From assembly GCA_034620365.1 (NCBI GenBank), contig JAQGEQ010000344.1, forward strand, positions 248,001 to 312,000: a DNA stretch of 64,000 nucleotides. Reading direction: 5' to 3'. The notes under the pieces are model-generated. The model saw nothing but the letters and a program-made list of their open reading frames with translations, made no database searches and was not told where the DNA came from. The translations under genes and the position numbers were made by a program. This document shows, in pieces, positions 722 to 63,451 of this stretch (position 1 is the first letter of the stretch; every line of letters starts with the position of its first letter). The stretch is from Pegea sp. RAD2-039 (Eukaryota > Chordata > Thaliacea > Salpida > Salpidae).

Positions 722-1553
722 ACTGCGTCACCGAACAGCAAATCTAGAAAATGGAGATAGTTTCTTAGTTATTAACAAAACCAAAGATGAGATGGGAAAA
801 GAGGAATCATGAGACATCATCATCTCTATCTACTTTCACCAACCAGCAAGTTGAATGAAACAAAATAAATTCTCACTTTGCTTGCTAAGAAATTCGAAGT
901 TACGTTTCTTAACAATTTAAAAATTTAAAAAGATTTGCTTATTTGTTGAAGATCAAATTGATAAGTTGTTTGTCTGCAAACCTACAAATATCAAGTTCTA
1001 TTTGATTAATCGAAGATTAAGCTCTCTAAAAACTTTCTTTTTATTAAATCTAAAAACATTTTAAAAATTTATGTATTAAATCTAAAAACATTTTTAAAAC
1101 TTCAAATAAGACAAGTAGAAAGGAATTCAAGCTGCTTATTGGTTGTTTAAGTCTTGTAAATGACCTAAAGTAACCTTTCTGGGTTACTAGCCTGTTGATG
1201 ACGTCATCATGACATGCAAGATGTGCCTCGTGATTGAACAAGCTATCAACAATCTTCATCTTTGAATATTAGAGAAGCAATTACAAACTTTTTCTTCAAT
1301 TATTTTCTAATTTCGTTTTTATCTTCTAAACTTGTCGAATTCTCATCAAATTTCCTGAATCTTGAAAAAGAAGAATCAGTTGCTGCAAATTTGCTGCAAG
1401 CTCTGCATTCATCGACATGTTCTGTTTATTTATCTTTTATTTTTTGTTTACTTTCGCATTGTAATTCATCAAAATATCAATAAATAAATTAAGAACAAAA
1501 AAAGCTTCATTAAATCTTCCTCTACGTCGCGCTTCAAGTGTGACGTCATCAAC
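722..1553. other. Intergenic, 3' flank of the astacin gene
   Basis: AT-rich with one TGACGTCA palindrome near 1200. Short open frames exist on both strands (for example minus 1050-1259) but show no recognisable domain. It probably contains the 3' untranslated region of the minus-strand astacin gene that ends at 1554. Confidence 0.5.
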
Positions 1554-3200
1554 TCAACAAAGTCCGCAACTTTTTTGACATTTTATTTTCATAAATTCAG
1601 GATACGATCCATAACAATAACCAGAAGTTGCAAACATCGAACAGCTTGTCACGTGATCGAGACATTCTGCAAACAACTTGATGACGTCATCATCTTTACT
1701 AGCATCATTATACCTTTAGATTGGCAAGTCGAACAACAATTCTTTTTCATCCAAATTGGGGCACTTTCACAGGCCCCAATCCCTTTCCAGTAACTACAAT
1801 CGCTTCTGACGTCATCACATCGCGACTTAGTGACGCGATTCAACCGACAACTAACGCAGCAAAGCGATTGAATCGACTTCGACCAACAGCGTCCATTAAT
1901 CGCGTACATGAAGCAGAAGCTATGACGGTCCAAACAAACAGTTGCCCCTGGCGACCACGGACCAGTCTGGTAACCAGTTGTGACCACTGGGTAAGCAGAA
2001 GTGGTTGCTATGGTGGCTTGTGGACACTTGTACAACAGATTCAATTGCTCAATATCGCGTTTTGACATCTCGCGACGCTATAAATGATGACGTCATCAAT
2101 GGGTTATTTTCGAATGGCAACCAACCTGAGTTTTAAGGACGCGGCCCGACTTCCGGTCTACCATGGTAGGACGTCCATTTCGACTAAACGCGAAACTTCC
2201 ATATTGCATGACGGAGTTGACGTCATACTCAGACCGGAAGCTGTTGATTTCAAATGAATTGAATTTGGCGAAGTTGAATTGAAGCTCTGCACGATTTTGA
2301 TGACGTCATTTCCGATGTTAATTAGTGATGACGTCACTGACCTGGAACCACGTTTTCTGTGACGATCGTGACGTAATTATCGCGATCAGGGCGACTATGT
2401 TCGTGCCAGAAGCCGAGGGCGTGAAGAGTTTCGTGAAGAACGGTGCCCTTGTTCCAACAGGGCGGACTCAGCGAAATTTGATGTATGACGTCAGTAGCTC
2501 CTACTGTTGAGTAGCAACCGTCTCCAGCGTCGAAATAGCGCACGTGACGTAATTGATCACGACGTGGTTCTAACCGAATACAAGTATGACGTCGTAGATC
2601 GCGCGCCGCTTCTTTGATTGCTTTTCGTCCTAGTTGACCTTAAACCAAAGTGATGACGTCACAAACGCCGCGAGCTTTGATAGAAATAGCGTGGCTAGAA
2701 GCAACTAACCAATTTCGTGACTTATCACGTATGGAATGACGTAATTAGACCCGCGTCGATAAAAAGTCCAAATTGGAAGATTTGACGACACCGCGCGTTG
2801 TTGGATACTATTTATGACGTCATTCGTATCACGTGTTTGTGATATCACATGATCGCGAATTTTTGAGTTTGTCATCGCGATGTCTCCTTGTAATAAATCT
2901 GTCTTCCGTAGTTGGTGGATACGCTCTGTAAGATTCTGATATCATAATCGCTCCAAACTGCTTTATGACGTCACCAGCGTAGCACATGTTAATATCGATG
3001 ATAGAGTACATCGCGTCGCCCGAATTTGGTTTTAGGATGACGTCACAATCAAATAAAGGTGCTCCTTTTGTTTGCTGCTTTTTAGAAATAGCGACAACTA
3101 CAAAAATGATGACGTCATCAATCGAAACTTCTACAAATGAAAACTCACCAAAGATTAACTTGAAAATTAAAACGGAATTCATCTTCATCTTCATCTTCAT
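1554..3200 (-). CDS. Astacin-family metalloendopeptidase with three C-terminal ShKT domains
   Basis: Secreted zinc metalloprotease of family M12A. Minus-strand exons read by hand: 3200-3149 (start ATG and hydrophobic signal-like segment), an unresolved propeptide part near 2830-3100, 2807-2710, 2638-2342, 2286-2126, 2077-1714 and 1666-1554 (stop). Exon 2638-2342 carries the zinc site HETLHALGFWHEHSRPDRD, with three His ligands and the catalytic Glu. Exon 2286-2126 carries the Met-turn as SVMQYG, so the usual His is Gln while the following Tyr is kept. After the catalytic domain come three six-cysteine ShKT modules: two in exon 2077-1714 and a third, ECLDHVTSCSMF..., in the last exon, ending CGLC before the stop. 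TGACGTCA lies in several introns. Family assignment is firm; the exact function (hatching, matrix processing or digestion) cannot be told. The exons between signal peptide and catalytic domain are uncertain. Confidence 0.88.
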
Positions 3201-3300
3201 CTACTTCGATTTCTTTGTCGTCTCGCGCTTTTATTGTTCTCGATTTCGCTTCAGGCGTCTTTCACATTTGAGAAAAAATAGCTTTCAGGAAGTTTCAACA

Positions 3301-4121
3301 AAACATTGAAATTGTTTGGCAACCCTTTTTTTCAATCAATTTGTGGTTTTTATTATCAAGTCTTTCAGATGAATATTTTCGTAAATCACAAATTCTATCT
3401 TTTAGTTTAAACTATTTAATGAACTTTAAATATTTAAATATTTTATTAATTTTTAATATTTTAGTAGAAATCTGAATATTAAACTCAAAAAATACAATTT
3501 AATATTTAATTGAAAATTTTCAAATTATTTATTTTTTCAAAAACATTCAAAAAACATTTTTTCAAAAATTCAAAGAAACGAAATTGTAATTTTTTTAATT
3601 TTTTTTGATAATTTATCAATTTTTGTCGAAAATCGAAAAAAGATTTTTGAAGAATTTCATTGAAAAGTTGCAAAATTTGTTAAAAACCAAAAAAATATTT
3701 TCTAAAACTCTTCATTTGTAGAAATAATAATAAGCACGCTATTCGTTGATGACGTCATAGTCTCGAGATGTTTTCGGCTTGTTTTTCATGAATGAATTGC
3801 CCTCAAAATGACGTCATAATCGAATTTCGACCAAATTTGAAGAATTTTGAAGCTTTTGTTGAAATCCGCAAAAAATAATAACAAGTTAACACGAGCGGAT
3901 GTGACGTCACTACAACGACACTCTCTCATAGATTACTGATGACGTCACGATCTCATAAACAATAATGATGTCATAAAACAGATAAATCTTGACATCTATT
4001 TGCAGATTTGCTGAAAATTTTCTTCATCTTTGACCAGCATCTTGTTAATATTCCTCTTTTAGATGACGACGCGCTGTAATGACGTCAGAGTCAACAACAC
4101 ACTGATGACGTCACCGACAAC
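3301..4121. other. Intergenic AT-rich DNA with TGACGTCA palindromes
   Basis: Between the astacin 5' end and the 3' end of the RGK GTPase. Long A/T tracts at 3310-3720, then six TGACGTCA sites between 3745 and 4115. No convincing coding sequence. Confidence 0.55.
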
Positions 4122-4945
4122 TTACACAGTTTTTGATTGATGTAATCGAATTTGTTTTATTGCACCTTCAAAAAGTCGATCGATGTTCAAGTTCAAATTT
4201 ACCGACGTTTCAATGAATTTCAATCCGCGAATTTCGCTCATAGCAATGACGTCATCCGTAGCAACGCGTCGTTTACGAACCAAATCGCATTTGTTGCCAA
4301 CCAACAAGACAGGAACGTCGGGTCGTAACGACGCAATTTTTTCAACGACTTCTTTCGCTGTTTCAAATGTTCCTGCGTCTACAAACGTCGATGACGTCAT
4401 CACTGCTGTATGACGTCATCGGTACTCACCTGTGACAGCGTAAGCGACGATAAAGGCGTCACCGATACTAATGTAACTTTTCAGATTTGCAAATTGGTCG
4501 TCATGGCAACAATCGAGTAAATGACGCTATTAGAAAAACGATTTTGACTTTTGAAATATTACATTGATGACGTCACTAACCTCTGTGTTGATGTCAAGGA
4601 TTCGAAGACGCGATTCGACGCCATCGACTTTTACAGGTCGTTCGTAAATATGATCTGGAAAACAAATTTGTTGATTTTTTACAAAGTGATGACGTCAGCA
4701 AACTCACGATTGGCTGCTTGCTCATCGAGAACTACGTCATCACACAATGACGTCATCTCGTTTCCATTGGCGAAAAATTTGCGACAAAGAGCAGATTTTC
4801 CGACGCTTAACTCGCCAATCATGACAACGCAATTCATTTCTACATCTCTGTCACTAGCTACCAGTGTGACGTCACTTTTATTATATATCTCCATGGCTAC
4901 TTGTTGCTGCTGCTTATCACGTGATTCGGTTGCTATCGTGTTGAG
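4122..4945 (-). CDS. RGK-family (Rad/Gem/Rem-like) small GTPase, 5' end unresolved
   Basis: Ras-superfamily GTPase of the RGK type; in other animals these inhibit voltage-gated calcium channels and reshape the cytoskeleton. Minus-strand exons are 4945-4708, 4654-4581, 4526-4430 and 4378-4122, joined with consistent phases. The G1 loop is GELSVGKS. The switch region reads YERPVKVDGVES, close to the RGK pattern Y-x-R-x-I/V-x-V-D-G-E. G4 is NKCDLV and G5 lies in KFIETSVNL. The end, LFEGAIKQIRLHQSKTV, matches the RGK carboxy end and has no CAAX box. The G3 position reads ILDINTERH and lacks the DxxG glycine; RGK proteins are known for unusual G3 sequences. The first exon listed begins at a splice acceptor, so a further 5' exon must lie upstream of 4945. 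The ATG at 4894 is internal to that exon. Introns contain TGACGTCA. Confidence 0.85.
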
Positions 4946-5689
4946 CTAAAACAAGTTGATGACGTCACTAATTTTCAGCAATACTTAAATTAAAACAAAA
5001 AACTGATCATTATCATCATCATCACAGTCAACATCTAAACGATACAAATGAGACAAGAGTGGAGATTTTGACTTTTATAAACTTTCTAATCTCTTATCTA
5101 CAAGTGCCCAAGGAAGTGGCAGTTGTTGTCATAGCAACATCACGTTATAACGTCACAAACGCCTTTCATCGATGCAACTTGGAATATTGTTGCAGCAAAT
5201 ATTTGAAAGAGGAAGTGACGTCACTAACCTGATCGTTTGATTCGAAGTTAGAATCTTGGCAACAAATGATTTCGCAAGGAAAATGAATAAAAGATTTTTT
5301 GAAATCGATTTGAACCATCTCGAAGCTTTTAGTCGAAAAATAAAAGTTAAAAAAACTGAAAATAAATGAAAAATTGAAAACAAAATAACTAAAAAATTTC
5401 AAATAATTATTTGAGAATAAATATTGAAGTTTAAAGAACAATTTGGTTATATCTAACTTCCAATGACGTCATCATTAGTTTCTCATAGAATACTTTCTAG
5501 CAAACAGACGATGACGTCATCAACTTTTGTCTGATCGTCTCGTCAGAGAGATTAAATTCAAATTCGTCAATAAATTAATGAATAAATTAGATGTCGCGTC
5601 AAATTTTTCAAAAAACTTCAATTAATCAAAAAGGAGAAATTAACTTTTAAAAAGTCGATCAATGCAAACCTAGAAACCAATACCAACAG
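4946..5689. other. Putative 5' region of the RGK gene, AT-rich
   Basis: Contains four TGACGTCA sites (near 4960, 5220, 5463 and 5512). The missing amino-terminal exon of the RGK gene should lie here or beyond, but I cannot identify it. Confidence 0.4.
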
Positions 5690-5815: not shown

Positions 5816-5954
5816 ACACGAAACTTATCTAGCAGAAAAAAAATGACTTTTTTAATTTGAACATTTTTAGACGTTGCTTTAAATTCCACCATATTAGATG
5901 AAATTTTATATTGGATCGATTCAACACTTTAAAATTAAAGTTTCTCAACCAGCG

Positions 5955-7283: not shown

Positions 7284-7866
7284 ATGGCTTCAAGTGGTTC
7301 GTAGAGCGTTTAGTAGATGGCTATGAAAAGATTAGAAAACCTTTAATACTTGTAAATGATTTAATTTGAAAAATGAATGATTATAAATTAAAGAAAATTA
7401 GATTTTTATATCAGTCTTAATAATTACTTCTTCAAATACATTTTGACAAGTTTTATTTAAAGATGAATTTGTTGATGCTTGTGACGTCAAGAAAACGTCG
7501 AGAACATATTTAGAACGTGATACCGATGCAGATAAGACGCGTATTTCTATTTCCATCTACATTATTTCCTACGTTTCAATTCAAATGTTATTCTTCACTG
7601 ATCACTTGACATCATTAGCTGTTGATGACGTCACCACCGTCTCGTGCAAATGCAGATTAAAAAGTTTCAGAGTGAAAATGTAGAAACAGTTTTCATGAAA
7701 TCTTCAAATTGATTATAATCCTCAAAAAACGACAAAATTTGATTTAAAACAATTTATTCATTTGATTAAAAGTTATATGCAAATTAGTTAATTGTTAAAT
7801 GATGACGTCATCAAGTTAATTAGTATATCATGACTTGATAAAAAGATGAGGATGACGTCATCATTT

Positions 7867-8664
7867 TCAAGGAAGTGTACGCAGAAAATGTTCTTCATAA
7901 GCTTCATCGTCATCAAATGACATAACTAACATATCCACTGGTTTCTCTTTCGGTTTTTCCCCTTCATCGTGCTCCTCAAACAAGTGAAGACGAAGAGCGG
8001 ATTTCGAACTCACGCTGAACTCACAATGAGTACAGAAAAATGATGACGTAGTAGAATGTGACGTCACATGTCGATCGAGCTCCCATTTACGCGTGAATTT
8101 CTTGTTACAGATGACGCAATAAAAAGGTTTGTAGCCGTTGTGACGTCGTATATGGATTGTGAGCGCTGAGTTGCTGGTAAAAGTTGATTTACACTTCGGG
8201 CATTTATAAGGACGTTCGCCGGTATGTGAGCGTTGATGTACCGCCAAATATGAAGATGATCCGAAGGATTTTTTACAAATGGTGCAAGTATAAGGTTTGA
8301 TATTTTCATGTGATCTTAGATGTGTTGCCAATTGAGCTCTTTCACGAAAATCTTTCGAACATTTTTCACATTTAAATAGTTTTTCTTCATCATTATGAAT
8401 CTTCATATGTCGCGTTAAAGAGCATTTTTGATTGAACTTCCGGTTACAAATGGAACAGGAAAAAGCGTTTTCGCCGCTATGGATGACTTCGTGACGCTGT
8501 AACGCAAATTTCTTGTTGAAACTTTTACCACAAATTGCGCATTCGTGCAATCGCGGTTTCGAGTGACAAATCAAGTGACGTTTAAAAGTGATGACGTCAG
8601 TAAAGACTTTTGAACAGGTGACACACTTATGGAAGCGAGTTGATGACGTCATCGTATTTTCCAT
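7867..8664 (-). CDS. C2H2 zinc-finger protein, eight fingers (copy A)
   Basis: Single-exon gene of 265 codons on the minus strand from ATG at 8664. Eight consecutive C2H2 fingers fill residues of about 12-235, beginning HKCVTCSKVFTDVITFKRH and ending FFCTHCEFSVSSKSALRLH. Fingers five and six are joined by a canonical TGERPYKC linker; other linkers are less regular. An acidic tail of about 30 residues follows (DEGEKPKEKP..., FDDDEAYEEHF). There is no KRAB, BTB or other partner domain. It is probably a DNA-binding transcription factor, but the target cannot be predicted here. Two TGACGTCAT palindromes fall inside the coding sequence, one in the first codons (TMTSS) and one in finger 1 (TDVIT). 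The protein is identical to the copy at 18095-18892; I found one synonymous change, in the last codon. Confidence 0.93.
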   Translation of the reverse strand: MENTMTSSTRFHKCVTCSKVFTDVITFKRHLICHSKPRLHECAICGKSFNKKFALQRHEVIHSGENAFSCSICNRKFNQKCSLTRHMKIHNDEEKLFKCEKCSKDFRERAQLATHLRSHENIKPYTCTICKKSFGSSSYLAVHQRSHTGERPYKCPKCKSTFTSNSALTIHIRRHNGYKPFYCVICNKKFTRKWELDRHVTSHSTTSSFFCTHCEFSVSSKSALRLHLFEEHDEGEKPKEKPVDMLVMSFDDDEAYEEHFLRTLP

Positions 8665-8798
8665 CTTGAGAATTTGATTTTATTAAAATTTTGTCTGTGA
8701 AGAAATTACAAAATGATTTTTAGGATTTTTTGAATTAGAATAAAACTTTCTGATTCTCACCAAAAAACTTATCTAAATGATTCTCTTTTAAATAATCC

Positions 8799-8990: not shown

Positions 8991-8999
8991 TGATATAAT

Positions 9000-17510: not shown

Positions 17511-18094
17511 AATGGCTTCAAGTGGTTCGTAGAGCGTTTAGTAGATGGCTATGAAAAGATTAGAAAACCTTTAATACTTGTAAATGATTTAATTTGAAAA
17601 ATGAATGATTATAAATTAAAGAAAATTAGATTTTTATATCAGTCTTAATAATTACTTCTTCAAATACATTTTGACAAGTTTTATTTAAAGATGAATTTGT
17701 TGATGCTTGTGACGTCAAGAAAACGTCGAGAACATATTTAGAACGTGATACCGATGCAGATAAGACGCGTATTTCTATTTCCATCTACATTATTTCCTAC
17801 GTTTCAATTCAAATGTTATTCTTCACTGATCACTTGACATCATTAGCTGTTGATGACGTCACCACCGTCTCGTGCAAATGCAGATTAAAAAGTTTCAGAG
17901 TGAAAATGTAGAAACAGTTTTCATGAAATCTTCAAATTGATTATCAGCCTCAAAAAACGACAAAATTTGATTTAAAACAATTTATTCATTTGATTAAAAG
18001 TTATATGCAAATTAGTTAATTGTTAAATGATGACGTCATCAAGTTAATTAGTATATCATGACTTGATAAAAAGATGAGGATGACGTCATCATTT

Positions 18095-18892
18095 TCATGG
18101 AAGTGTACGCAGAAAATGTTCTTCATAAGCTTCATCGTCATCAAATGACATAACTAACATATCCACTGGTTTCTCTTTCGGTTTTTCCCCTTCATCGTGC
18201 TCCTCAAACAAGTGAAGACGAAGAGCGGATTTCGAACTCACGCTGAACTCACAATGAGTACAGAAAAATGATGACGTAGTAGAATGTGACGTCACATGTC
18301 GATCGAGCTCCCATTTACGCGTGAATTTCTTGTTACAGATGACGCAATAAAAAGGTTTGTAGCCGTTGTGACGTCGTATATGGATTGTGAGCGCTGAGTT
18401 GCTGGTAAAAGTTGATTTACACTTCGGGCATTTATAAGGACGTTCGCCGGTATGTGAGCGTTGATGTACCGCCAAATATGAAGATGATCCGAAGGATTTT
18501 TTACAAATGGTGCAAGTATAAGGTTTGATATTTTCATGTGATCTTAGATGTGTTGCCAATTGAGCTCTTTCACGAAAATCTTTCGAACATTTTTCACATT
18601 TAAATAGTTTTTCTTCATCATTATGAATCTTCATATGTCGCGTTAAAGAGCATTTTTGATTGAACTTCCGGTTACAAATGGAACAGGAAAAAGCGTTTTC
18701 GCCGCTATGGATGACTTCGTGACGCTGTAACGCAAATTTCTTGTTGAAACTTTTACCACAAATTGCGCATTCGTGCAATCGCGGTTTCGAGTGACAAATC
18801 AAGTGACGTTTAAAAGTGATGACGTCAGTAAAGACTTTTGAACAGGTGACACACTTATGGAAGCGAGTTGATGACGTCATCGTATTTTCCAT
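18095..18892 (-). CDS. C2H2 zinc-finger protein, eight fingers (copy B)
   Basis: Duplicate of the gene at 7867-8664, encoding an identical 265-residue protein with eight C2H2 fingers and an acidic carboxy tail. The only coding difference I found is the last sense codon (CCA here, CCT in copy A, both Pro). Upstream sequence is also duplicated, so both copies should share the same promoter. Nothing in the sequence suggests that either is inactive. Redundant dosage or very recent duplication would both explain identity. Confidence 0.93.
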   Translation of the reverse strand: MENTMTSSTRFHKCVTCSKVFTDVITFKRHLICHSKPRLHECAICGKSFNKKFALQRHEVIHSGENAFSCSICNRKFNQKCSLTRHMKIHNDEEKLFKCEKCSKDFRERAQLATHLRSHENIKPYTCTICKKSFGSSSYLAVHQRSHTGERPYKCPKCKSTFTSNSALTIHIRRHNGYKPFYCVICNKKFTRKWELDRHVTSHSTTSSFFCTHCEFSVSSKSALRLHLFEEHDEGEKPKEKPVDMLVMSFDDDEAYEEHFLRTLP

Positions 18893-19026
18893 CTTGAGAA
18901 TTTGATTTTATTAAAATTTTGTCTGTGAAGAAATTACAAAATGATTTTTAGGATTTTTTGAATTAGAATAAAACTTTCTGATTCTCACCAAAAAACTTAT
19001 CTAAATGATTCTCTTTTAAATAATCC

Positions 19027-19190: not shown

Positions 19191-19199
19191 ATCATCTTG

Positions 19200-26075: not shown

Positions 26076-28660
26076 ATGGAGATAAAACCAAGAGTTTGTC
26101 ACTTGAAAAGAACAGAAAGTGGTTATGGCTTTCATTTATATGGAGCCAAGCACTCTTCAGGACATATCATCAAGAAAGTAGAAGAATCAGGTGTAGCAGC
26201 ACTTGCTGGTATGAAAGCTGGTGATAAAATTATTGCTGTAAATGGTGACAATGTTGAAGAACTAACTCATATGGATGTGAGTCACTAATACTTTGTTTAT
26301 TTAACACGAAAGTTTGTTATTTTAATTCTATTCTCATAAACCAGTGACTCTGATTCATTAGAAACTGATTGGTTAGCACCCTGACTTGTAAGAATTTTCC
26401 TACCAACAACATTAAGTCAACAAAATTATTTTACAATCAAGTACTTCTGTTAGATGGTGCTGAGACCCTTCTAAAACAAAACAAAATTTCAAAATCTCTA
26501 TTTTTAGTGATATAAGATACTAGCAATAGAAAATATTAAGCAACAATTATATAAATTAGTCAATTTAGCTCCTTGACTTGTAAAAACTCCTCGACCACCA
26601 ACATCAAGTCAATAATAACTTGTCTTACAAACAAATCTTGTGTTTGGTTGTTGAAGGTGCTGAAGACTCACTTGCTTCTAGCACCTTGACTTGTAAAACC
26701 TCCTAGACCAACAACACCAGGTCAATAATAACTTGTCTTACAAACAAATCTTGTGGTTGGTCGTTGAAGGTGCTGAAGACTCGCTTGCTTCTAGCACCTT
26801 GACTTGTAAAACCTCCTAGACCAACAACACCAGGTCAATAATAACTTGTCTTACAAACAAATCTTGTGCTTGGTGGTTGAAGATGCTGAAGACTCACTTG
26901 CTTCTAGCACCTTGACTTGTAAAAACTCCTCGACTAACAACATCAAGTCAATAATAACTTGTCTTACAAACAAATCTTATGTTTGGTTGTTGAAGGTGCT
27001 GATGACTTACTTGCTTCTAGCACCTTGACTTGTAAAAACTCCTTAACCAACAACATCAAGTCAATAATAACTTGTCTTACAAACAAATCTTGTGCTTGGT
27101 TGTTGAAGGTGCTGAAGACTCACTTGCTTCTAGCACCTTGACTTGTAAAAACTCCTCGACCACCAACACCAAGTCAATAATAACTTGTCTTACAAACAAA
27201 TCTTGTGTTTGGTCGTTGAAGGTGCTGAAGACTCACTTGCTTCTAGCACCTTGACTTGTAAAAACTCCTCGACCAACAACACCAAGTCAATAATAACTTG
27301 TCTTACAAACAAATCTTGTGATTAGTTGTTGAAGGTGCTGAAGACTCGCTTGCTTCTAGCACCTTAACTTGTAAAAACTCCTCGACCACCAACACCAAGT
27401 CAATAATAACTTGTCTTACAAACAAATCTTGTGCTTGGTTGTTGAAGGTGCTGAAGACTCACTTGCTTCTAGCACCTTGACTTGTAAAAACTCCTCGACC
27501 ACCAACACCAAGTCAATAATAACTTGTCTTACAAACAAATCTTGTGTTTGGTCGTTGAAGGTGCTGAAGACTCACTTGCTTCTAGCACCTTGACTTGTAA
27601 AAACTCCTCGACCAACAACTCCAAGTCAATAATAACTTGTCTTACAAACAAATCTTGTGATTAGTTGTTGAAGGTGCTGAAGACTCGCTTGCTTCTAACA
27701 CCTTGACTCGCTCGCTTTTAATAGTTTCTAAATCATTTTTTTAATCTTAGGTTGTCGCAAAGATTAAAGAAAACAAAAATGAAACAAAGTTACTCTTGAT
27801 TGATGAGGACGGCGACAAATATTGTAAAGAGCACAACATCCTCATTACAGAAGATCTACTCAAAGATCACAGCGTTGATGACGTCAGTACTTCTCTCAAC
27901 CTTCATCAGTTCACTCCTATCTCGCAGACATCATCAAAAGTCACTGATGACGTCACAGACAGCGAGAAGCTTCGTCCAAAGTTGTGTAAGTTGGTTAAAG
28001 GCGAAGGAGGATACGGATTTAATTTGCACAGTGAAAAAGGATCTTCATCTAAATCTGTGTCTTTTGTCGAAGCTGGAGGAGTTGCTGATCGTGCTGGGGT
28101 TAAAGTTCACGATCGTCTCATCCAGGCTAGTTGAGTTATTGTGACGTCATCATCAAAGACGTCACGTGGTATTGATGAAGTCACATATGATTGTCATGTT
28201 GTTATAACCACTGATGATGACGTCATTTGTAAATGATGACGTCACGTGTGTTTCAGGTGAACGGGTTGAATGTTGAATCAGAGAATCATAGCCGCGTCGT
28301 TCGAAGAATCGTCGAATCTGGCGATTCAGTTGAATTGTTGTTTGTCGATAAAGAAGCTGACGCGTATTATGCTGCTTGTGACGTCACTCCCACCGTTGAT
28401 CACGTCACTGGTGACGTGCCTGACAAGAAAGGTGATGACGTCATCATCACACTTTCGTCACTGAAACGCGATTGGTTGCAGCTAAAAGCGTTCCACCGCC
28501 ACCACCGGAAGTAGGTGAAAGTAGCGATGTGATGACGCAATTCAGTGAAGAGATGTTCGCGATGAATCTCGACTCTTTAAAGGCGAAAGTTCAAAGTAAA
28601 CGGAAGCAAGCGCCCTCTGCTGGTTGGGGAGATCGAAAAGCAATCTTCAACAACTTCTAA
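26076..28660 (+). CDS. NHERF-type scaffold: two PDZ domains and ERM-binding tail
   Basis: Homologue of the NHERF1/NHERF2 adaptors, which tether membrane transporters and receptors to ezrin/radixin/moesin at the apical cortex. Exons are 26076-26276, 27751-28125, 28257-28431 and 28482-28660, summing to 309 codons plus stop. PDZ1 has the loop GYGFHLYG and spans exons 1-2. PDZ2 in exons 2-3 has GYGFNLHS and DRLIQ joined to VNGLNVESENH. A short linker with PPPPPE follows. The end, MNLDSLKAKVQSK then GWGDRKAIFNNF, matches the ERM-binding helix whose last residues are W-x-x-K/R-x-x-L/I-F. Intron 1 contains 113-bp satellite array 3. Intron 2 uses a GC donor (CAG|GCTAGT) with a normal CAG acceptor; no GT alternative keeps frame. 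Intron 3 is 50 bp and begins GTGATGACGTCAT. A duplicated first exon lies at 15880. Confidence 0.93.
26562..27705 (+). repeat. 113-bp satellite array 3, in NHERF intron 1 (about 10 units)
   Basis: Tandem 113-bp units in the same orientation as the other arrays. Neighbouring pairs are alike (units at 27072 and 27411 are near-identical), hinting at local multi-unit duplication. A diverged lone unit precedes it at about 26366-26470. The array ends within 50 bp of the acceptor of NHERF exon 2. Confidence 0.96.
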
Positions 28661-28906: not shown

Positions 28907-28907
28907 G

Positions 28908-36789: not shown

Positions 36790-38802
36790 ATGTCTGCATT
36801 TTGTGGTTCAGACTATTATACATCTCAAGAATTTGAAAGGTCTCAAAGTTCAAATGTTTATGGAAGTAGTATTCTAGAAGATTTAAGATTAGATCTTAGA
36901 TCACAGATTGTTCATGCATTAGATCCAATAGTTTATACTAAAAAAGAAGTTTTTAAGATTAAAGAACCAAAAAAAAGTAGGTTGTCTCAAGCAGAACATA
37001 GCTTATATTTTCAACTAACAAAACAATTTAAAGATAAAAGCATTGATTTGTTACAATTAGACACATTTAATAAAAGACGATTTTTAAGCTACCAAAATAT
37101 GACAAAAGTGTTGTTGGCTGAACAGAGAGAATTTGCAAATTATGCTTATGAGTGTGCGAAGGCAAATATTTGGTTGTATAACTATGTACCTCATTTAATT
37201 AAAAGATATGTCAACAAATGGGTTAGAAAATCCATTCAAAAAGTTTGTGGATTATATCCATTATATAAAAACTATTTTTCATTTAGTCATAATCAAGTTA
37301 CAACAGATGTAAGCTTACAAGATGGAAATAATATTCTATTTATTGGCAAAGCAAGAATTTTAAAAAAGAATTTCAAAGTGATCAACTTTTATGAAAATAG
37401 AGAAGTTCCAGCAAAAGAAGATAGTTTACCTATAACTGAAGATTCAAATATTCGAATACTTGCTTCTGATTGGTCTTGTGATGTTGCTATTACCATGTCA
37501 ACACTAATTGTGTTACTAGGATGTTCTTCTCTACATCCTGAAGATTGGCAAATTCCTTTCAAGGTGGAAACATTACAAGAAGGGGTGTCAGCTGGCAAAA
37601 AACTTTTGTTGTTTGATAAAGCTTTGCCTCCTAAAAAGCTAAATAGTCGTCAACATTTACAGATGTTTTTTCAAACTGTGTTAAAACAGAAGGCTTGTAT
37701 TGATAAGCAAGAAGTTCTCGACAATCAGATGCATCTAAAACAGATCACTCTACCTCAACTTGATGGACTTTATGATAATTTCGGAGAAAAAGTTTACCCT
37801 AAAGAAAATGTTCAGGCTGAAAGTGAATCTGACTCTGATAATCTTGTTATTGATCTTGGTGTTGATGATGAAGTAACAAAAAAACAGCCGGAAGTCGTGA
37901 AAGATCAAGAAGAGGAACTTGAAGATATGATGACGTCATCATGTGATGTTGATAAGAGCTCGAATCAGTCTCAAATTACTTCGAATAATTTAGCAACAAT
38001 GTCAAGAAACTTTCAATCAGGCACAGCTGATGTTTTAGGTCAAATTTTTGAAAATTCAGTATATAAGCAACCACCAAGCAACCAGTTGCCATACCAACCG
38101 AAGCTACAAACGCGAACTTTAGTGAACCCTGAAAATGGTAGGATGTATTTCTATCGTTTGTGGGTTCTTGGGGAGTTTCGGATCTTAATTAGAGGAGCTA
38201 TTCATGGTCAAAAAAACGAAAAAAATATTCTGAATGGTGAAGCGAAAAATTTGGTTTTTAAAGCTAAGGTGGATTATCAAAGTAATCTTGGATATGAGCA
38301 ATTAACATTTCAAGAACGACTTTGTGATTGGTTGATATTAAAACTTTATCCTCAACCAATAACAGTTCTTCGATATCGAATAAATCCAATCTTACAAAAA
38401 GTTCTTGAAGTTTCTAGCACTTCAGTTATTGATGTTGTTCATTCACAAATAGAAAAAGAGGTTTGTAAAATGGCAATTCGATTGTTTTATACGATCTGTA
38501 AGATGATATCATATAAGTGTTCAACTCCTTCAGATTATTTAATCTTTAAATGTAAACAAACCAATCAGATAGCAGTACGTCATCCACATGTAGCAACTGA
38601 TGACGATTTAGGTTTGTATTCGATTCACAAGGATTATAGTGGCGCTGGAGGTTTTCTTGAATCAACTATTGACAATTTTGATTATATTCCACTTGGTTTT
38701 GAGAAGTCTATGAAAATGAATCATCTGCCGTTGACATTTGACTTTGAGAATAAAGTTAAAAAAAAGAATCATAAAAAGAAGAAATTTCGTAAACAGAAAT
38801 AA
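36790..38802 (+). CDS. ICE2: ICE2/NARG2-like little elongation complex subunit
   Basis: Single-exon gene of 670 codons. In other animals ICE2 joins ELL and ICE1 in the little elongation complex, which promotes small nuclear RNA transcription by RNA polymerase II. The carboxy half carries the conserved NARG2_C-type block, recognised from MYFYRLWVLGEFRILIRGAI through TVLRYRINPILQKVLEVSS to LESTIDNFDYIPLGFEKSM, and ends in a lysine-rich tail. The amino part is charged and helix-prone (QAEHSLYFQLTKQF). An acidic middle (SESDSDNLVIDLGVDDE) contains the only TGACGTCA of the gene, encoding MMTSS. It is intronless although the vertebrate gene has many introns. A splice-acceptor-like TTTTTTAG lies two bases before the ATG, and PSMC3 follows after 68 bp, suggesting co-transcription. 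The family call rests on remembered motifs and has moderate to good certainty. Confidence 0.78.
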   Translation: MSAFCGSDYYTSQEFERSQSSNVYGSSILEDLRLDLRSQIVHALDPIVYTKKEVFKIKEPKKSRLSQAEHSLYFQLTKQFKDKSIDLLQLDTFNKRRFLSYQNMTKVLLAEQREFANYAYECAKANIWLYNYVPHLIKRYVNKWVRKSIQKVCGLYPLYKNYFSFSHNQVTTDVSLQDGNNILFIGKARILKKNFKVINFYENREVPAKEDSLPITEDSNIRILASDWSCDVAITMSTLIVLLGCSSLHPEDWQIPFKVETLQEGVSAGKKLLLFDKALPPKKLNSRQHLQMFFQTVLKQKACIDKQEVLDNQMHLKQITLPQLDGLYDNFGEKVYPKENVQAESESDSDNLVIDLGVDDEVTKKQPEVVKDQEEELEDMMTSSCDVDKSSNQSQITSNNLATMSRNFQSGTADVLGQIFENSVYKQPPSNQLPYQPKLQTRTLVNPENGRMYFYRLWVLGEFRILIRGAIHGQKNEKNILNGEAKNLVFKAKVDYQSNLGYEQLTFQERLCDWLILKLYPQPITVLRYRINPILQKVLEVSSTSVIDVVHSQIEKEVCKMAIRLFYTICKMISYKCSTPSDYLIFKCKQTNQIAVRHPHVATDDDLGLYSIHKDYSGAGGFLESTIDNFDYIPLGFEKSMKMNHLPLTFDFENKVKKKNHKKKKFRKQK

Positions 38803-38870: not shown

Positions 38871-41202
<2,332 letters not shown>

Positions 41203-41253
41203 TATGACGTCATTAACGATGACGTCACTGTTTATTGTTTGTTGTGTTTGTTG

Positions 41254-41466: not shown

Positions 41467-43818
41467 TTAAGTGAGGGGCATGTACTTGTTGGGATAGTAA
41501 GAGGTTTGTTTGAGGGCAATATTCTTCAGTTGAAGCGCTACAAGTGACGATTCAGCGAGAAACGCCACGATACATATGCAAATGAGTCCTGATAACCAGG
41601 GTTCTTTGTAGATTAGTAATTGACTAATTGCTGATAAATACAAAAGAGTTGATGGGTAAGTAGCAAGTAGATAGAGGTAGCTAGTTGTCAAGAAGATGAT
41701 CTGTTGAAGAAATTAGATGATCTGATGATGAAGATGATCTGATTAACTAACCTGCATCATCATGATCAACAGAAGAGCTAACACGAAAGAGCGATGGTTG
41801 TTAACAGCAACGCAATTGTTGATGTATAAGCAATGGTGGTCGATGTTGATGACCACAACCTCACAAATACGACAATATTTCGCATTTGATGGTTTGATGA
41901 CCTACAATTACAACCAATAGTTGTGGCCCTGTCACTAGTTGGTGACCAGTAACCTCAGTAAAAGGGCAGAAGTCATTTTCTGAACAAATTCCTTTACTGA
42001 TGTCTAACACGCTCAGATTCCTCTTCTGGTCTTTGTAGGTTCCTGGATCACCGAAGATCAGAAATTGGAAATGATACAAGAAGCAAGAAGAGGTTATCAT
42101 CATCGATGTGAAGAGAAAAGGAGATGGCCAAACACGTGATCGGTAGTCAAAGAAAAATCACAGATGATAAAGTAAATGTCTCAAAGGATATCTGGTAACA
42201 ACTTGATGAAGAAAATGAAGATGCAGTGAACAATTGCTGAAATGAAAAGACCGAGATAGATTGGATTGGGCCAACCACATACGTGGTCGATGCGGTGTTT
42301 CTGTCTGCAAATAATATTTGTAAGATTAGAGAAGTTGTCATCAAGGTGGCTGTGTTTGAAGAAGAGAGCTTTTAACAATCATTGAAGTTAATCCCTTGCA
42401 AGAGTTGATGCAGCTGATTTCCTAAAGAAACCATCAATCACTTCGTCTTGAGTACATGGAAGTACTCTCATGATTTTAGTTGAATTTTGTTAGACGAAGA
42501 GTTCATTAAGGTGGTTTGTATTTAGTGGGATTTGAACGAGGGTACATCAAATCACTAACAGCTTTTAATTTACAAGATGGTACCTGGTAATTACCAGATG
42601 CATACACAGCAAGGAAACCATAGTGAAAATTCCTGAGTGACTGTTTAGGAAGTTACAGAGGAAAAACACAAGAGACATCCAGAGAAAGGGAGCACAAAAT
42701 ATCGCTGTCCAAAGCACTGAAAGAAGAGAGGTAGAAGACGGAAGAATGGTTGTAGTGGTTACTTGTAGGTCCTTTAGGAGGTTGTAGGGTTGGTTGCTTC
42801 ATATAACTTTGTAATTCTTTTACTAATTGTTGATGTCTAAAGAAGTTGTGTTAAAATCATGAAAATATCAAATTAGTTTCTACTTGATCGTATTTTCTTT
42901 CATGGCTAATTTCAGAGGTGTGTATCCATCATTATTTTCAATATGAGTCAAACCACAATTACTATATGATAGAAGTTGCCATGTCATCGAACTATCACCA
43001 TTTTTAGCAGCAATATGAAGCAGTGTGTTGCCCTGATGATCTTGATAATCAATTGGACATCTCTAAAAATGATAATATCAACAAGAAGTCATCAAAAGAT
43101 GTAAACAAACGTTTTTGTTGAGCAAATACTGAATGAGAATCTGGTTACGTTGCATATAAGCAACATATAATGAAGATTCACCTCTGACGTTTACAGAATG
43201 AGCTGTCAATGGTGTTGTCTTCTCCAAATAATTGATCATTGCTCTATAGAAAAGATCTTTAAAACATCATAACCTCATCATAACATCAACTTACATACTA
43301 TTACCCATCATAGCAAACATAATACAACCTCTGCCCATCTTATCAACTAGTTCAACATCTGCTCCAGCTTCTATAAGAATTTGAACTGATTTAATAAAAC
43401 CACTTCTACAAGCGTAATGCAAAGGAGTTTCATCTAAAAAAGAAGTTGATGACGTCATACGGCAAGTTGATGACGTCAACCGAAAGATCATACCAAAAGA
43501 TGATTTAGCATTTGGGTCTGCTTCATGTTCCAACAAAATTTGAATAATAGTCACGTGATTCCTGATACAAGCAGAATGTAGAGGTGAAATCTCATTCCAA
43601 CCCTTGAAATAAATCATTGAAATATTTCTCAATTCTCAAATATCTTCACAAACTTTCGCTTTCACCAATTCTTTGTTTTCTTTCAACATTTCTTCACATT
43701 TTTGCCAATTATTCATTTCAACAATTTTATGAATTGAAGATTGAGATAAAGATGGCGGAGGAGGAGGAACAGATGTAAAGACAAACCCCTCAGGCATGAC
43801 TTGCTTCGGATATGACAT
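41467..43818 (-). CDS. Ankyrin-repeat DHHC palmitoyltransferase (ZDHHC13/17-like)
   Basis: Membrane S-acyltransferase of the HIP14 class. Resolved minus-strand exons are 43818-43654, 43602-43494, 43433-43295, 43243-43111, 43062-42884, 42836-42763, 42716-42595, then two middle exons not fully resolved (starting near 42405 and 42304, and one ending at 41954), 41901-41752 and 41700-41467 (stop). Ankyrin repeats fill the first five exons, for example SPLHSACIRNHVTIIQILLEH and TPLHYACRSG. Membrane segments follow in exon 42716-42595 and in NPIYLGLFISAIVHCIF. The catalytic exon reads YCRICEVVVINIDHHCLYINNC, so the Asp-His-His-Cys is intact, but several structural cysteines of the usual cysteine-rich domain are replaced. 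The first zinc-site segment reads DFCPFTE where CxxC is expected. Zinc binding may thus be weakened. The gene ends convergently with PSMC3. Confidence 0.85.
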
Positions 43819-46002: not shown

Positions 46003-47535
46003 CTAGTAACATCCTTGAGACTTCCAAATCTCTCCGTTACTGATCAGTTCCCATCCTTTCATCATTTCTTGCTCAATATCAACTTTCCGGTTTTTGATAT
46101 TTCCCCACAGATGACGAATAAAGACTTTTTCGAGATCATCTCCTCCGAAGAGTCGTGTGTAAAGTTGGAAATCAGATCGCTGAGAATAAGGAGCAGGCTG
46201 CAAAATAAAGATCTTCGTCAGGAAGACTTTCAACAGATCATCAAAGATACATACAAAGATCTTTGTTGCTCCATCTTCCAACTTTTTTCTCATCAATCCA
46301 GTTATAAGGACATCATCGAGATGAATCAAAGATACTTGTGAAGAGACTTGATATAAACGAGCAGCCAATGAAGTGGGCATCAAATAAAGACCACCTCGAC
46401 AGTAAGCTGGCCAGTATTTACCCGAATAAGATTGATTTGAAATAAACCATTTACTGGTCGGATCACGAACAGGTTTATCTAGCTCCTTGTAACTATAGAA
46501 ACAGACGATTGGCAATTGTTCGTAACATGGTCGTGCCCTAGATTCTTCAACTGATGACGTCACACTCATAAAATGCACGTAAGTGGCCAGGTTGAATGGA
46601 TTGATGATGACGTCATCGTCGCACGATGTAAACAGCCAATGAGGATGCAGAAAGTTAGAAGCCCACTGCAAACTTGCAGTTACTTTTATTCCGAGGTTTC
46701 TGCAATCACAAGTGATGATGTCATCGACACTTTCATTACGTCACAACTCACTTAGAAGAGTCTTCTTCACTTATTTGCAACAAATCACCATAGTGACGAG
46801 CTTCTTCTTCGATTTGAATCGCGCGTAACAAACGCTCTTTCTCTTTACCACCGGTCCCCATCACAAACACTACTTCATGTCGACACGCGCCCCCAATACC
46901 CTTCACGCCGCCCCAAGTCTTTCGAATCACTTCTCGTCGTTCTTTGTTGTCAATCGCGCTTTTGATGAAGTGTACAATTGTCAGCACCGGACTTTCCGCT
47001 ATCAACAAACACAGCGTTGTCATGACAACACGACGAAAACGCTTCGTCAATAGCAAGCAATTGGTTTGTTGGCTGATCACCCTGAATGGGTTTTTTAATT
47101 GAAATAGATTTTAGTAAACATTTCTATTTATTCTTTTATATTCTGAGTTTTAATTTTTAATCAAATCTGATTCAACATTTTTGTGAAATGATTTTTAGTG
47201 TATCAACACAAAACCTTTCTCTACTCAACTTTTAAAAATCTAATTTATTTTCCCCTCAAAATCCTGGAATTTGAAGATAAGGTCACTGAAAAAGCTGATA
47301 AATATCAGACTAGTTGCTGCTTATAAATTTACTGTTAATCATTTCTTACAAATAATTAAACTTAAATAACTGGAATAAAAATGGAATTAAGAAATTATAA
47401 ATTGAAAGAAAACTTACCAGCATTGATGCCACAAGTTAAACTTTCTAATCTTCGCATTACGTTTACTGGTTGATGAATGAAAGAGATTATGGGGTTTTTC
47501 GAAGCTGGCTTCGACGTGAATTTTAATTTTTTTTC
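45917..47535 (-). repeat. Inverted repeat, left arm
   Basis: About 1.6 kb that is the near-perfect reverse complement of 61920-63553. Positions mirror as x' = 109454 - x through the whole gene part. The only coding-region difference I found is one base inside a 57-bp intron. A short indel lies just beyond the stop codons. Identity decays at 47535, within exon 2 of the glycosyltransferase. Confidence 0.95.
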
Positions 47536-47891: not shown

Positions 47892-49459
47892 CAAATTTGA
47901 CAATATTTTGAAATTTATTTACTTTTAGATTATCTGAAAATAAAATCTTGTATGAGATCGTTTCAATAATTTTAAAATTTGATTTTTTGAACTCTTTTAG
48001 GAGTAGGTTCTCATAAATATTTATAAATAAATAAGATCTTTAAAAAAAATCATAAAAAATTGCCTCACTTCAAAAATATCACTTTTGGTGGCTTATTTTT
48101 AAAGGTTTTTAAACAAACTTAATTTTCTTTTTTTTACTTAAAAGAAATCTTCAAAAATCAATAAATTTTTGAGTTTTCAATATTTTTATGCTACAAATAT
48201 CTTTACAAATACTGTTTTCTACACCCTCCTTCAACTCTACTGAGTTTCTTTATTTTTCTGCGACCGCAGCGTGATGACGTCATGACTTATCCAGCAGTAC
48301 CACTTCAAATTCAATTGATATAAAAATTACTTCTACATTTAGGAAATTTATTCACTATAAGCAAGAACATAATTTTTATACACAAAAGTAATAATAATAT
48401 TATATAAAATATATTTATCATAAATTTTATTCACAAAGAAATTGAGTTGATTATATTTCTTAAATTTATTTTGTTTAAAAAGAAAAATTGATGTTTTTCA
48501 TTTTTATAAGATATTCAATAACAACTTTTGTTCAAATCATATCAATTTTTTTGATAAAATAATAATTACATCAAAAAACCAACTAATATTTGAATCTCAG
48601 AAATTTTTATGAGAAAACAAAGAAATTGTTTTGAGATTTCAGAAAATTACAAAATTTCTTCCAGTGTTCTCTTTTTGAAAAAAAAAAAGTTTAAATTTAA
48701 ATTACCTTCTTGATTATTCTAGCAGTCGTTTAAAATCAACTTTAATTAAGTCATCAACATTATTTGAAAAGTCAGAAACTAACAGCTGTTGTTGATTCTA
48801 GCATATAAGATAGACTTTAACATTCTAGTTTCGATCAGTAAACAGCTAGTACAAAGAAGAGAGGAAAAGGAGAGAAGAAAGGAAAAAGTTTTGCTTCTGA
48901 ATTTATAGATATTCAAATATTCATAAAAACTTCAATTGTGTATAACTCACTCTAAAATGTAACTTCCAGCTTGATGTTATTCATGATTAAATCTTTTATT
49001 TAAATTACTCAGTGAAATTACTACATATGTCACCAAATAAAAATGATGAAAAGATGTTGAATAAAACACAACATGTTTAGTCTACACAACAGATGCACTG
49101 TTCAAACAAACTAGACAAATTCTGATTTGCTTAACAAAATAAACTGACAATCAGAAAAAAATCTTTTTTACATTTATTGAAACTAATTAAATTATTAATT
49201 ACCTAATTTATGTTGAATAAATATCATTCATCAAATGACTTATTCTTATCTAATATAATTATTACAAATAAAGTTAGTTTTCAAGTTCTTAAGTCATATA
49301 AATACTTTGAAAAGAAATATCCATTCATAATTACAATAAGTTTATTAAATAAACTTGAAATGATTAAACTGATAAAAATAATTTTGAAAGCATCAAGGTA
49401 AGTTAGGGTCAATAAAATTTCTTGAATAAAATTACTAAAGCAAAAAAAGTAGTCAATGG
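47892..49459. other. AT-rich region upstream of GT31 copy 1
   Basis: No gene recognised. A small GC-rich island at about 48258-48300 (TGCGACCGCAGCG followed by TGATGACGTCATG) lies some 370 bp upstream of the GT31 start and is a candidate promoter element. Confidence 0.45.
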
Positions 49460-52570: not shown

Positions 52571-52902
52571 TGAGGATGGTCTCACTTAATCTTCATGAAT
52601 TTAAGTGATTCCAACCAACTAATTGATGTTTTATAGATATTTTTAGTGTTTCAAACTAACAATTTGTAATTTTGTAACATCATTCAATTCAATAAATCGA
52701 AAAATATTTTTTAGTTCATCAACATCTTATCTCAGAAATTCTTGCTCCGAAGTGATGACGTCACAAAGTTTGAAGAAAATATTTTATTACGATGATGAGC
52801 GGTGATGACGTCATATACACGTGGATATCACCCTAACCAATAACGACCCAACAAAAACGCGACGATGACGTCATAAAGGCGGACAGAAAGAGGGTGAAAA
52901 AA
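52571..52902. other. Short region between satellite array and SUZ12 3' end
   Basis: Three TGACGTCA palindromes (near 52755, 52803 and 52865). It presumably holds the SUZ12 3' untranslated region on the minus strand. Nothing else recognised. Confidence 0.5.
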
Positions 52903-56097
<3,195 letters not shown>

Positions 56098-61200: not shown

Positions 61201-61618
61201 TATATTTTGTATTAATATTGGAGCTAAAAATTGTAATTTATTAAACAAAATATTAATAATTTTTTTAATAAATAATCTATTCTTGACCAACTTAAATTAA
61301 AATGGATTTTATCAAGTTTTAGCGTAAAATTTTTCTAATAACTATTTTATTTATTTCTAGCTTTTTTATGAGGACAATAGCAACACTTTGTTTATTTAAA
61401 AAAAACGGGAGAAATAAGAACAATAAATGAAAAAAAACCGTTATCTTTATTCTACTATATAAAAAGTATTGTGTTCAATTTTATTTAATCAAAAAACAAT
61501 TTATTTATTTTCAAATCTGTATTTTGTAAACTATTTTTTCAATTTTTACAATTTATTTTATGAACTAGTTTCGGAATTACAGATATTTTGAATAAATAAA
61601 AAAAAAAATAAATAAGAA
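58201..61618. other. Long AT-rich intergenic region
   Basis: About 3.4 kb without any gene I can recognise and without TGACGTCA. A small GC-richer patch near 58868-58910 contains a 7-bp inverted repeat GACACTG/CAGTGTC. The end must hold the promoter of GT31 copy 2. Confidence 0.55.
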
Positions 61619-63451
61619 ATGAAATTAATTAGAGGTAAAAGAGGTTTTTGTAAAATAAAGTCTGTATTAAAATACTTGCGAAAATTTTCTGTACTATTTA
61701 TTCTACTCGCCTCAATATTTTGGTTTTTATCAACTTACTGGACAGAAAATGAAGAAGAAAAAAAATGGGAAAAGCTCATAGAAAACAATAACAAAAGTTG
61801 GAGAGAACAAATTTGTAGGTAGATTTTGTCAATTCTTACCACAAAAGTTGTTCTACGAAATTGTGTAGGGAATAAGGAACAATGTAGAGATTTAAAAGTG
61901 ATGCTTCAACCAAAAAATGAAAAAAAATTAAAATTCACGTCGAAGCCAGCTTCGAAAAACCCCATAATCTCTTTCATTCATCAACCAGTAAACGTAATGC
62001 GAAGATTAGAAAGTTTAACTTGTGGCATCAATGCTGGTAAGTTTTCTTTCAATTTATAATTTCTTAATTCCATTTTTATTCCAGTTATTTAAGTTTAATT
62101 ATTTGTAAGAAATGATTAACAGTAAATTTATAAGTAGCAACTAGTCTGATAGTTATCAGCTTTTTCAGTGACCTTATCTTCAAATTCCAGGATTTTGAGG
62201 GGAAAATAAATTAGATTTTTAAAAGTTGAGTAGAGAAAGGTTTTGTGTTGATACACTAAAAATCATTTCACAAAAATGTTGAATCAGATTTGATTAAAAA
62301 TTAAAACTCAGAATATAAAAGAATAAATAGAAATGTTTACTAAAATCTATTTCAATTAAAAAACCCATTCAGGGTGATCAGCCAACAAACCAATTGCTTG
62401 TTATTGACGAAGCGTTTTCGTCGTGTTGTCATGACAACGCTGTGTTTGTTGATAGCGGAAAGTCCGGTGCTGACAATTGTACACTTCATCAAAAGCGCGA
62501 TTGACAACAAAGAACGACGAGAAGTGATTCGAAAGACTTGGGGCGGCGTGAAGGGTATTGGGGGCGCGTGTCGACATGAAGTAGTGTTTGTAATGGGGAC
62601 CGGTGGTAAAGAGAAAGAGCGTTTGTTACGCGCGATTCAAATCGAAGAAGAAGCTCGTCACTATGGTGATTTGTTGCAAATAAGTGAAGAAGACTCTTCT
62701 AAGTGAGTTGTGACGTAATGAAAGTGTCGATGACGTCATCACTTGTGATTGCAGAAACCTCGGAATAAAAGTAACTGCAAGTTTGCAGTGGGCTTCTAAC
62801 TTTCTGCATCCTCATTGGCTGTTTACATCGTGCGACGATGACGTCATCATCAATCCATTCAACCTGGCCACTTACGTGCATTTTATGAGTGTGACGTCAT
62901 CAGTTGAAGAATCTAGGGCACGACCATGTTACGAACAATTGCCAATCGTCTGTTTCTATAGTTACAAGGAGCTAGATAAACCTGTTCGTGATCCGACCAG
63001 TAAATGGTTTATTTCAAATCAATCTTATTCGGGTAAATACTGGCCAGCTTACTGTCGAGGTGGTCTTTATTTGATGCCCACTTCATTGGCTGCTCGTTTA
63101 TATCAAGTCTCTTCACAAGTATCTTTGATTCATCTCGATGATGTCCTTATAACTGGATTGATGAGAAAAAAGTTGGAAGATGGAGCAACAAAGATCTTTG
63201 TATGTATCTTTGATGATCTGTTGAAAGTCTTCCTGATGAAGATCTTTATTTTGCAGCCTGCTCCTTATTCTCAGCGATCTGATTTCCAACTTTACACACG
63301 ACTCTTCGGAGGAGATGATCTCGAAAAAGTCTTTATTCGTCATCTGTGGGGAAATATCAAAAACCGGAAAGTTGATATTGAGCAAGAAATGATGAAAGGA
63401 TGGGAACTGATCAGTAACGGAGAGATTTGGAAGTCTCAAGGATGTTACTAG
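61619..63451 (+). CDS. GT31 beta-1,3-glycosyltransferase, copy 2 (inverted paralog)
   Basis: Golgi type II glycosyltransferase. Exons 61619-61814, 61869-62036, 62456-62702, 62755-63199 and 63257-63451 sum to 416 codons plus stop. Exon 1 encodes a basic cytoplasmic end (KLIRGKRGFCKIK) and a hydrophobic anchor (FSVLFILLASIFWFLS), unlike copy 1. Exon 2 aligns with copy 1 through the stem (EQCRDLKVMLQPKNEKK here, KCRDIDITFQPKNEKK there), after which the two copies are practically the same. Catalytic features are KERREVIRKTWGG, CDDDVIINPF and LDDVLITG. The third exon uses the acceptor TTGTTGATAG at 62455; the reading frame upstream of it is open by chance. The 57-bp last intron is in frame and stop-free. 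Both copies look intact. Confidence 0.88.

Follow-up and report, generated by a model that had tools for sequence, protein, structure and literature searches.

A CRE-type dyad repeated through the gene bodies of a salp genome and the CpG-rich DNA in which it lies

The question raised by this locus is why one transcription factor palindrome should recur so often inside unrelated genes. The window, meaning here the whole 64-kb stretch of DNA analysed (positions 248,001 to 312,000 of contig JAQGEQ010000344.1, from the salp Pegea sp. RAD2-039), holds 96 perfect copies of TGACGTCA, the core of the cAMP response element (CRE), the first at 1199 and the last at 62892-62899. The original prediction, made from the letters, had put the figure at roughly 95 and the random expectation below one, and both stand: dinucleotide shuffles give a mean of 0.80 and a maximum of 3 (n = 100) and a first-order Markov model gives 0.75. 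A genome-wide count near expectation, which it had named as telling against it, is not what is found, the whole genome (105.7 Mb in 387 contigs) having 27,792 sites where the reversed word has 969, some 29 times the control; nor is the equal enrichment of other GC palindromes, named likewise, seen. Site density is 1,500 per Mb in the window against a genome average of 263, and the 14-mer TGATGACGTCATCA has 1,972 genome copies with none for its reversed control. Next by excess among the 8-bp palindromes of the window come AAATATTT (40 against 11.6 expected) and TCACGTGA (9 against 0.75).

Over 194 kb, that is the window together with 13 stretches of 10 kb each picked by position (7 of 20 positions sought fell beyond short contigs), there are 157 exact sites, and all 24 one-mismatch words sum to 94 (0-6 copies apiece in the window). 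Rearranging the same letters gives five other palindromes centred on CG, and each of these occurs 0-2 times. The 13 stretches alone hold 61 sites against 0.89 expected, with strong clumping in the individual counts (0, 1, 1, 1, 1, 3, 2, 1, 12, 32, 4, 2 and 1; mean 4.7, variance 77). It is clear that the over-representation is real and unusual, extends across the genome and is maintained at the DNA level. Searches of the literature for the motif as a feature of whole genomes, introns or CpG islands, with partial coverage and with preprints outside it, gave no account of such a phenomenon; the site itself is of a known kind, and it is the scale and placement that have no description there.

The maintained unit is longer than the 8-mer. 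RTGACGTCAY makes up 23,214 of the 27,792 genome sites (reversed control 228), and YTGACGTCAR, with both flanks opposite, has only 453 genome copies (control 242); because sites in which neither flank conforms are near background, the unit is the 10-bp dyad RTGACGTCAY. Past about 3 bp per side the base counts around window sites are flat, and no common sequence is seen further out. When the 37 short-intron sites are oriented by transcript, position −1 (A25/G10) mirrors +8 (T29/C7), −2 (G20) mirrors +9 (C21) and −3 (T23) mirrors +10 (A22). Since the flanks are mirror-symmetric in the transcript sense DNA and not RNA is the likely target; such symmetry results from a dimer on DNA and would not be expected from an RNA-binding protein. 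GTRAGT is over-represented to either side of the sites, which alone does not put sites in introns.

Placement was read from home-made gene models, in which the intron length mode lies near 50 bp. Models scoring below 45 were excluded from the density, correlation, compartment, flank, shuffle and distance analyses, as were second gene copies except from the per-gene densities; the model of a PDZ gene, set on the wrong strand, was kept in the per-gene densities and the density/CpG correlations and dropped from the compartment, flank, shuffle and distance counts. Compartments were counted in genes whose density exceeds 2 sites/kb, with flanks of 500 bp and with predicted coding starts as starts, 5' untranslated regions thus lying inside the flanks; these counts and those of the flanks include 30 stretches (L001-L030) chosen for holding a site, which the figures for the window and 13 stretches do not use, and serve comparison between compartments only. 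They bear out the claim that sites occupy introns, exons and flanks of unrelated genes. Introns of 60 bp or less are the densest compartment (27 sites in 1,919 bp, 14.1/kb), followed by 3' flanks (18 in 4,500 bp, 4.0/kb), exons (40 in 10,377 bp, 3.9/kb) and longer introns (10 in 2,542 bp, 3.9/kb), and 5' flanks are the poorest (6 in 4,433 bp, 1.35/kb). Short introns exceed exons (p = 1e-6) and 3' flanks exceed 5' flanks (p = 0.02), and with sites in introns, exons and 3' flanks and no promoter-type concentration upstream of starts, the earlier view that they are something other than ordinary promoter CREs is supported.

A site is present in 20 of the 38 short introns of site-rich genes, and two sites in 7 of them. 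Per fifth of the coding span the sites number 17, 20, 16, 6 and 18, without 5' bias, and exon ends are not enriched, with 9 sites in the 3,627 bp lying no more than 40 bp from a splice site and 31 in the 6,750 bp further in. None of six clusters has site spacing of greater regularity than chance would give, and nucleosome-like periodicity was not found in them. Per-gene densities, inflated (as is the 28-gene shuffle test below) because L001-L030 were chosen by site, are high for RGK, astacin, SUZ12 and a zinc finger gene (3.8-8.7 sites/kb) and low for CTP synthase, SEC24, Arp3 and epsin, named by eye (0-1 sites/kb).

Sites within coding DNA allow a stricter comparison, in which the protein is held fixed and codons are permuted among synonymous positions of each gene (300 shuffles). 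In the window and 13 stretches (19 genes) there are 40 coding sites against 3.0 in shuffles (maximum 7), a 13-fold excess, and the 13 stretches alone (10 genes) have 11 against 1.0 (maximum 4); over all 28 gene models the figure, an inflated one, is 58 against 4.1. These 58 read as xDVx in 35 cases and xTSx in 23, the exclusive use of two stop-free frames being forced by the gene models, and two models on contig C1 share an identical coding-site peptide and are probably paralogues. None other among 256 palindromes attains such a coding ratio, the runner-up being TCACGTGA (5 against 0.6). In codon-pair counts, which take in stretches fetched by site, DV is written GACGTC in 38 of 89 cases (5.8 expected) and TS is written ACGTCA in 25 of 112 (2.9 expected); four control pairs stay low (observed/expected TP 1/1.5, AS 3/2.3, EV 2/4.7, DA 2/1.4), and a fifth deviates, DI being written GACATC 13 times against 5.0.

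Comparison between species was made at the protein level. The coding site at 37931..37938 in ICE2/NARG2 encodes EDMMTSS, and all seven residues are kept in a metagenome protein of 75% identity, although among the 60 alignment columns before it 25 are identical and 21 gapped, as in a poorly conserved linker. For the GT31 glycosyltransferase, with seven of nine matches aligned, the close relative P0002 keeps SVTSS in a stretch conserved anyway, and among the distant ones ITSS stands in P0006 and P0008 and the other four have MTSR, MTSR, MTSY and ITEY, so that the evidence is weak either way. The best 120 of 276 zinc-finger homologues include none above 44% identity and no likely orthologue. Viral contigs were considered as pieces of relatives and set aside: at least 145 of their loci carry the motif, the 30 site-richest have a GC of 0.42-0.75, and L168, which has the highest site density, consists of a tandem coding repeat.

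The sites also centre CpG-rich halos. With motifs masked, the observed/expected (o/e) ratio of CpG in the window and 13 stretches is 1.25 near sites and falls to about 0.6 beyond 1.6 kb, as GC falls from 0.41 to 0.26. In exons only, CpG o/e is 1.32 within 100 bp and 0.42 at more than 1 kb, with 0.98 and 0.84 in between; GC remains at 0.39-0.43 throughout and the GpC control moves from 0.94 to 0.80. The intronic CpG o/e goes from 1.07 to 0.50. Genes with denser sites have a higher exonic CpG o/e after removal of the motif (Spearman 0.81 for the 20 genes of the window and stretches, 0.76 for 29 genes), and the correlations of density with exonic GC (rho 0.36, p = 0.05) and intronic CpG o/e (rho 0.35, p = 0.10, 23 genes) are weaker. 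Within SUZ12, CpG o/e is 1.46 in the site-rich 5' part and 0.95 in the site-free 3' part. Tiles of 1 kb carry 0.13-0.14 sites/kb at CpG o/e below 0.6, rising to 4.9 above 1.3. For 500-bp tiles with GC of at least 0.32 and CpG o/e of at least 1 (n = 36), base composition predicts 0.6-0.8 sites and 84 are present, so that CpG richness is not the source of the excess. As a separate matter, the E-box palindrome TCACGTGA is the runner-up in the window and stretches (with 8 copies in the stretches), and CACGTG and CGCGAT too are enriched in site-rich tiles.

The explanation favoured, with about even confidence and from sequence evidence, is that the sites may form intragenic arrays for a CREB/ATF-type bZIP protein which exclude CpG methylation and hold certain gene bodies open for transcription. 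A methylation-sensitive dimer such as CREB would bind unmethylated dyads anywhere in the gene body and would keep the surrounding few hundred bp unmethylated in the germ line, leaving the gene open. That unmethylated state would preserve nearby CpGs, the central CpG of the site included, and new sites would arise by point mutation and be retained by selection where sequence permits, above all in short introns. The CpG halo would then reflect low germ-line methylation, and a bZIP protein would occupy the sites, its binding probably lowering methylation and raising or regulating expression. Among the guesses of the original prediction a genome-wide chromatin signal fits best, because the sites centre CpG-rich halos.

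Candidates for the parts are present in the genome. A bZIP_1 profile search, in which the best candidates were scored, gave 12 matches, which we take, by eye, to be CREB, Jun, a Fos-like, a CREB3-like, two ATF6-like, an XBP1-like, a C/EBP-like, two PAR/NFIL3- or C/EBP-like and a CNC/BACH-like protein and one without family; ATF2/7 was not recognised among these 12. On contig C14 a pKID exon lies about 3.8 kb upstream of a CREB-type bZIP exon, and CREB would be the first candidate binder, with pairing to Jun or Fos possible. DNMT1-type domains (RFD and methylase matches) occur at seven loci, the methylase matches lying in open frames of 832-873 residues, and two of three TET-type matches on contig C52 are above cut-off; because the genome has both types of match it is fair to suppose that CpG depletion here comes about by methylation. 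The DNMT1-like loci are an unusual multiplication in themselves, with two on C57, one on C249, three on C32 and one on C52, several near contig ends. According to PMC1796609, CREB binding can be inhibited when the central CpG is methylated, and PMC4378018 states that in invertebrates genes under dynamic regulation appear to carry less methylation than housekeeping genes; the many-site and few-site gene sets fit the latter statement.

Several observations pull the other way. PSMC3 is an exception to that fit, being a housekeeping gene with 1.7 sites/kb. Short introns are 3.6 times richer in sites than longer introns and flanks, an excess that a purely chromatin role leaves unexplained. In introns GC drops with distance from sites too (0.356 to 0.267), and therefore the halo is in part not specific to CpG; site density is also weakly correlated with intronic GC (rho 0.49, p = 0.02). 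CpG o/e above 1 in site-rich exons is beyond what mere protection from methylation explains, and 13 of the 36 CpG-rich 500-bp tiles, some of them tandem repeats, are site-free. The deamination product TGATGTCA/TGACATCA, with 22 copies in the 194 kb, is barely the commonest one-mismatch pair (TGAAGTCA/TGACTTCA has 20), and the gene models, from a finder with fixed splice signals, are partly wrong.

A bolder form of the proposal, put forward tentatively and with distinctly less confidence, is that the approximately 23,000 copies of RTGACGTCAY, written into introns and synonymous codons, might amount to a distributed code for intragenic CpG islands, each bound site punching an unmethylated hole a few hundred bp wide and a regulated methylation-free state being set by how many sites the gene body has, not by the promoter. 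A site of transcription factor type at about 29 times its control count across an animal genome, in excess even among synonymous codons, would be direct evidence that coding sequence is shaped by factor binding within exons and very short introns. With thousands of sites, and site-rich beside site-poor genes, the genome offers a natural system for asking whether factor binding sets invertebrate gene-body methylation. An excess of CREs need not imply promoters.

Other explanations share some of this evidence. Intragenic CREB/ATF bZIP enhancers could act without any causal role in methylation, the halo then marking a class of genes unmethylated for other reasons in which sites survive; the dyad, codon and intron evidence fits this equally, and the site-rich genes are mostly regulated ones (RGK, astacin, zinc finger) with the four genes named by eye above among the site-poor. 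It nevertheless seems rather unlikely, the halo being graded over a few hundred bp and not gene-wide and the two parts of SUZ12 differing in CpG o/e, and enhancers seldom need up to 9 identical sites/kb across exons and introns. Improbable, too, are meiotic recombination hotspots, where an ATF-type dimer would open chromatin for breaks and GC-biased conversion would enrich the surroundings: GC and CpG are indeed elevated near sites and intron GC declines with distance, but exonic GC shifts by no more than 4 points while CpG o/e shifts threefold, unlike such conversion, and hotspot motifs are expected to vanish through conversion and not to accumulate. The hotspot precedent is the fission yeast M26 heptamer ATGACGT, which lies within most of the sites here and, according to PMC9775316, works inside coding sequence. 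Marks for nucleosome positioning or replication origins would suit the kb-sized CpG-rich clusters, but given the irregular spacing in all six clusters, and no need for such marks to favour introns and coding frames, this has very little probability.

The original prediction, partly supported in its interpretation as a whole, had also suggested a splicing-related element and a self-spreading sequence, and both fit poorly. An RNA element aiding the splicing of tiny introns would account for short introns being densest, with more than half of them holding a site, but it sits badly with the mirror-symmetric flanks, the unenriched exon ends, the 18 of 38 short introns that have no site and the intronless zinc-finger gene with 3 sites inside and 4 downstream, and must be held very doubtful. 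Least probable of all is a motif that spreads itself, as a micro-MITE (miniature inverted-repeat transposable element), transposon footprint or conversion-driven repeat, to which very high copy number and clumping would point; the sites have none of the shared sequence past about 3 bp per side that marks a MITE or repeat family, one-mismatch copies are few, coding sites are 13-fold over synonymous shuffles, and the DDDVI site of GT31 aligns without gaps to relatives.

Known systems resemble the sites in part. CpG islands have a GC above about 50% and a 5' location. The sites are like them in a CpG o/e near or above 1 against about 0.6 elsewhere in the genome, and differ in a GC of 0.36-0.43, in being intragenic without 5' bias and in being centred on one transcription factor dyad. 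With the vertebrate CRE the TGACGTCA core and a CREB-type gene are shared, and PMC1796609 places 62% of human canonical CREs in CpG islands, much as sites here lie in CpG-rich DNA. That paper puts vertebrate CREs just upstream of transcription starts and gives the human genome 25% of the expected CRE number (data not shown there), in contrast to the roughly 29-fold excess over control, the intragenic position and the poor 5' flanks found here; for fly, worm and sea squirt it reports finding no bias in CRE position. Among elements scattered within genes the nearest likeness in function may, by analogy, be TTNGATYTG in intron-mediated enhancement in Arabidopsis, described in PMC6760150 as dispersed and intragenic and as acting from introns or from exons of intronless genes, not from upstream. 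The likeness is one of occurrence only, sites here being over-represented in introns and also in exons. TTNGATYTG lacks dyad symmetry and its action is confined to the neighbourhood of the 5' end, whereas the sites have no 5' bias. The ade6-M26 hotspot of fission yeast, as presented in PMC9775316, has an ATGACGT core inside coding sequence acting through an ATF-type bZIP, and most sites here share that core; the difference is that GC is level in the exons here, with no sign of GC-biased conversion there, which counts against a hotspot as the intronic fall in GC does not.

In the window itself the largest cluster (31 sites, 1199..5519) lies in and around astacin (model 1649-3200, − strand) and an RGK GTPase (4059-5318, −), where four of four and three of four short introns respectively have sites. 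Of the gene names in the original prediction astacin, RGK (as a Ras-family GTPase), C2H2 zinc finger, NHERF (as PDZ), CAPN15 (as calpain), PSMC3 (as AAA) and GT31 (as Galactosyl_T) have Pfam matches above curated cut-offs, and SUZ12 falls below (19.4 against 28 bits). SUZ12 (model 52791-56097, −, fused to a repeat array and hand-trimmed) has 19 sites in its 5' part (54162..56017), with one or two in each of the introns 54623-54668, 54807-54854, 54957-55007, 55096-55148, 55228-55278, 55588-55635, 55786-55834 and 55982-56031; its exon 54089-54416 probably hides an intron with two sites that were counted as exonic, and three further sites (52756..52873) are at or beyond its 3' end. The PDZ (NHERF-like) gene on the + strand has 7 sites (27879..28443), as has the CAPN15-like calpain (32682..34554; model 32480-34979, +), whose site-bearing introns are 33114-33162 and 33488-33540. 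At PSMC3 (model 38871-41202, +, which we take to be complete against the human protein) there are 6 sites (39457..41227), 4 inside and 2 directly 3'. ICE2/NARG2 has its one coding site, an ankyrin-repeat-like gene model named by eye (42653-43818, −) has two sites (43450..43478), and one site is isolated (48275..48282).

Two duplications carry sites with them. A tandem block of about 10.2 kb (7482-13113 and 17710-23320) comprises a zinc-finger gene and an MFS transporter, and all 7 sites are in both copies: those of the first (7482..8651) fall 3 in the single-exon C2H2 gene (7867-8664, −) and 4 directly 3', and those of the second (17710..18879) have identical spacing. GT31 is an inverted duplicate, with copy A (46003-47110, −) holding two sites (46555 and 46608, 46555..46615) and copy B (62344-63451, +) three (62731, 62839 and 62892, 62731..62899); where copy B codes DDVI, copy A codes DDII and the third site is missing. 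A 113-bp tandem repeat, 94% alike, forms four arrays (5954-6844, 16370-16905, 26566-27708 and 49461-52549) that are CpG-poor and contain no TGACGTCA. Elsewhere in the genome, on contig C1 at about 6.13 Mb (L044), a ribosomal DNA unit adjoins a minisatellite of ATTATCATCAAATCATCAACAAA-like units, and the sequence becomes AT-rich in the 3' part of that stretch, inside the match to the large-subunit gene.

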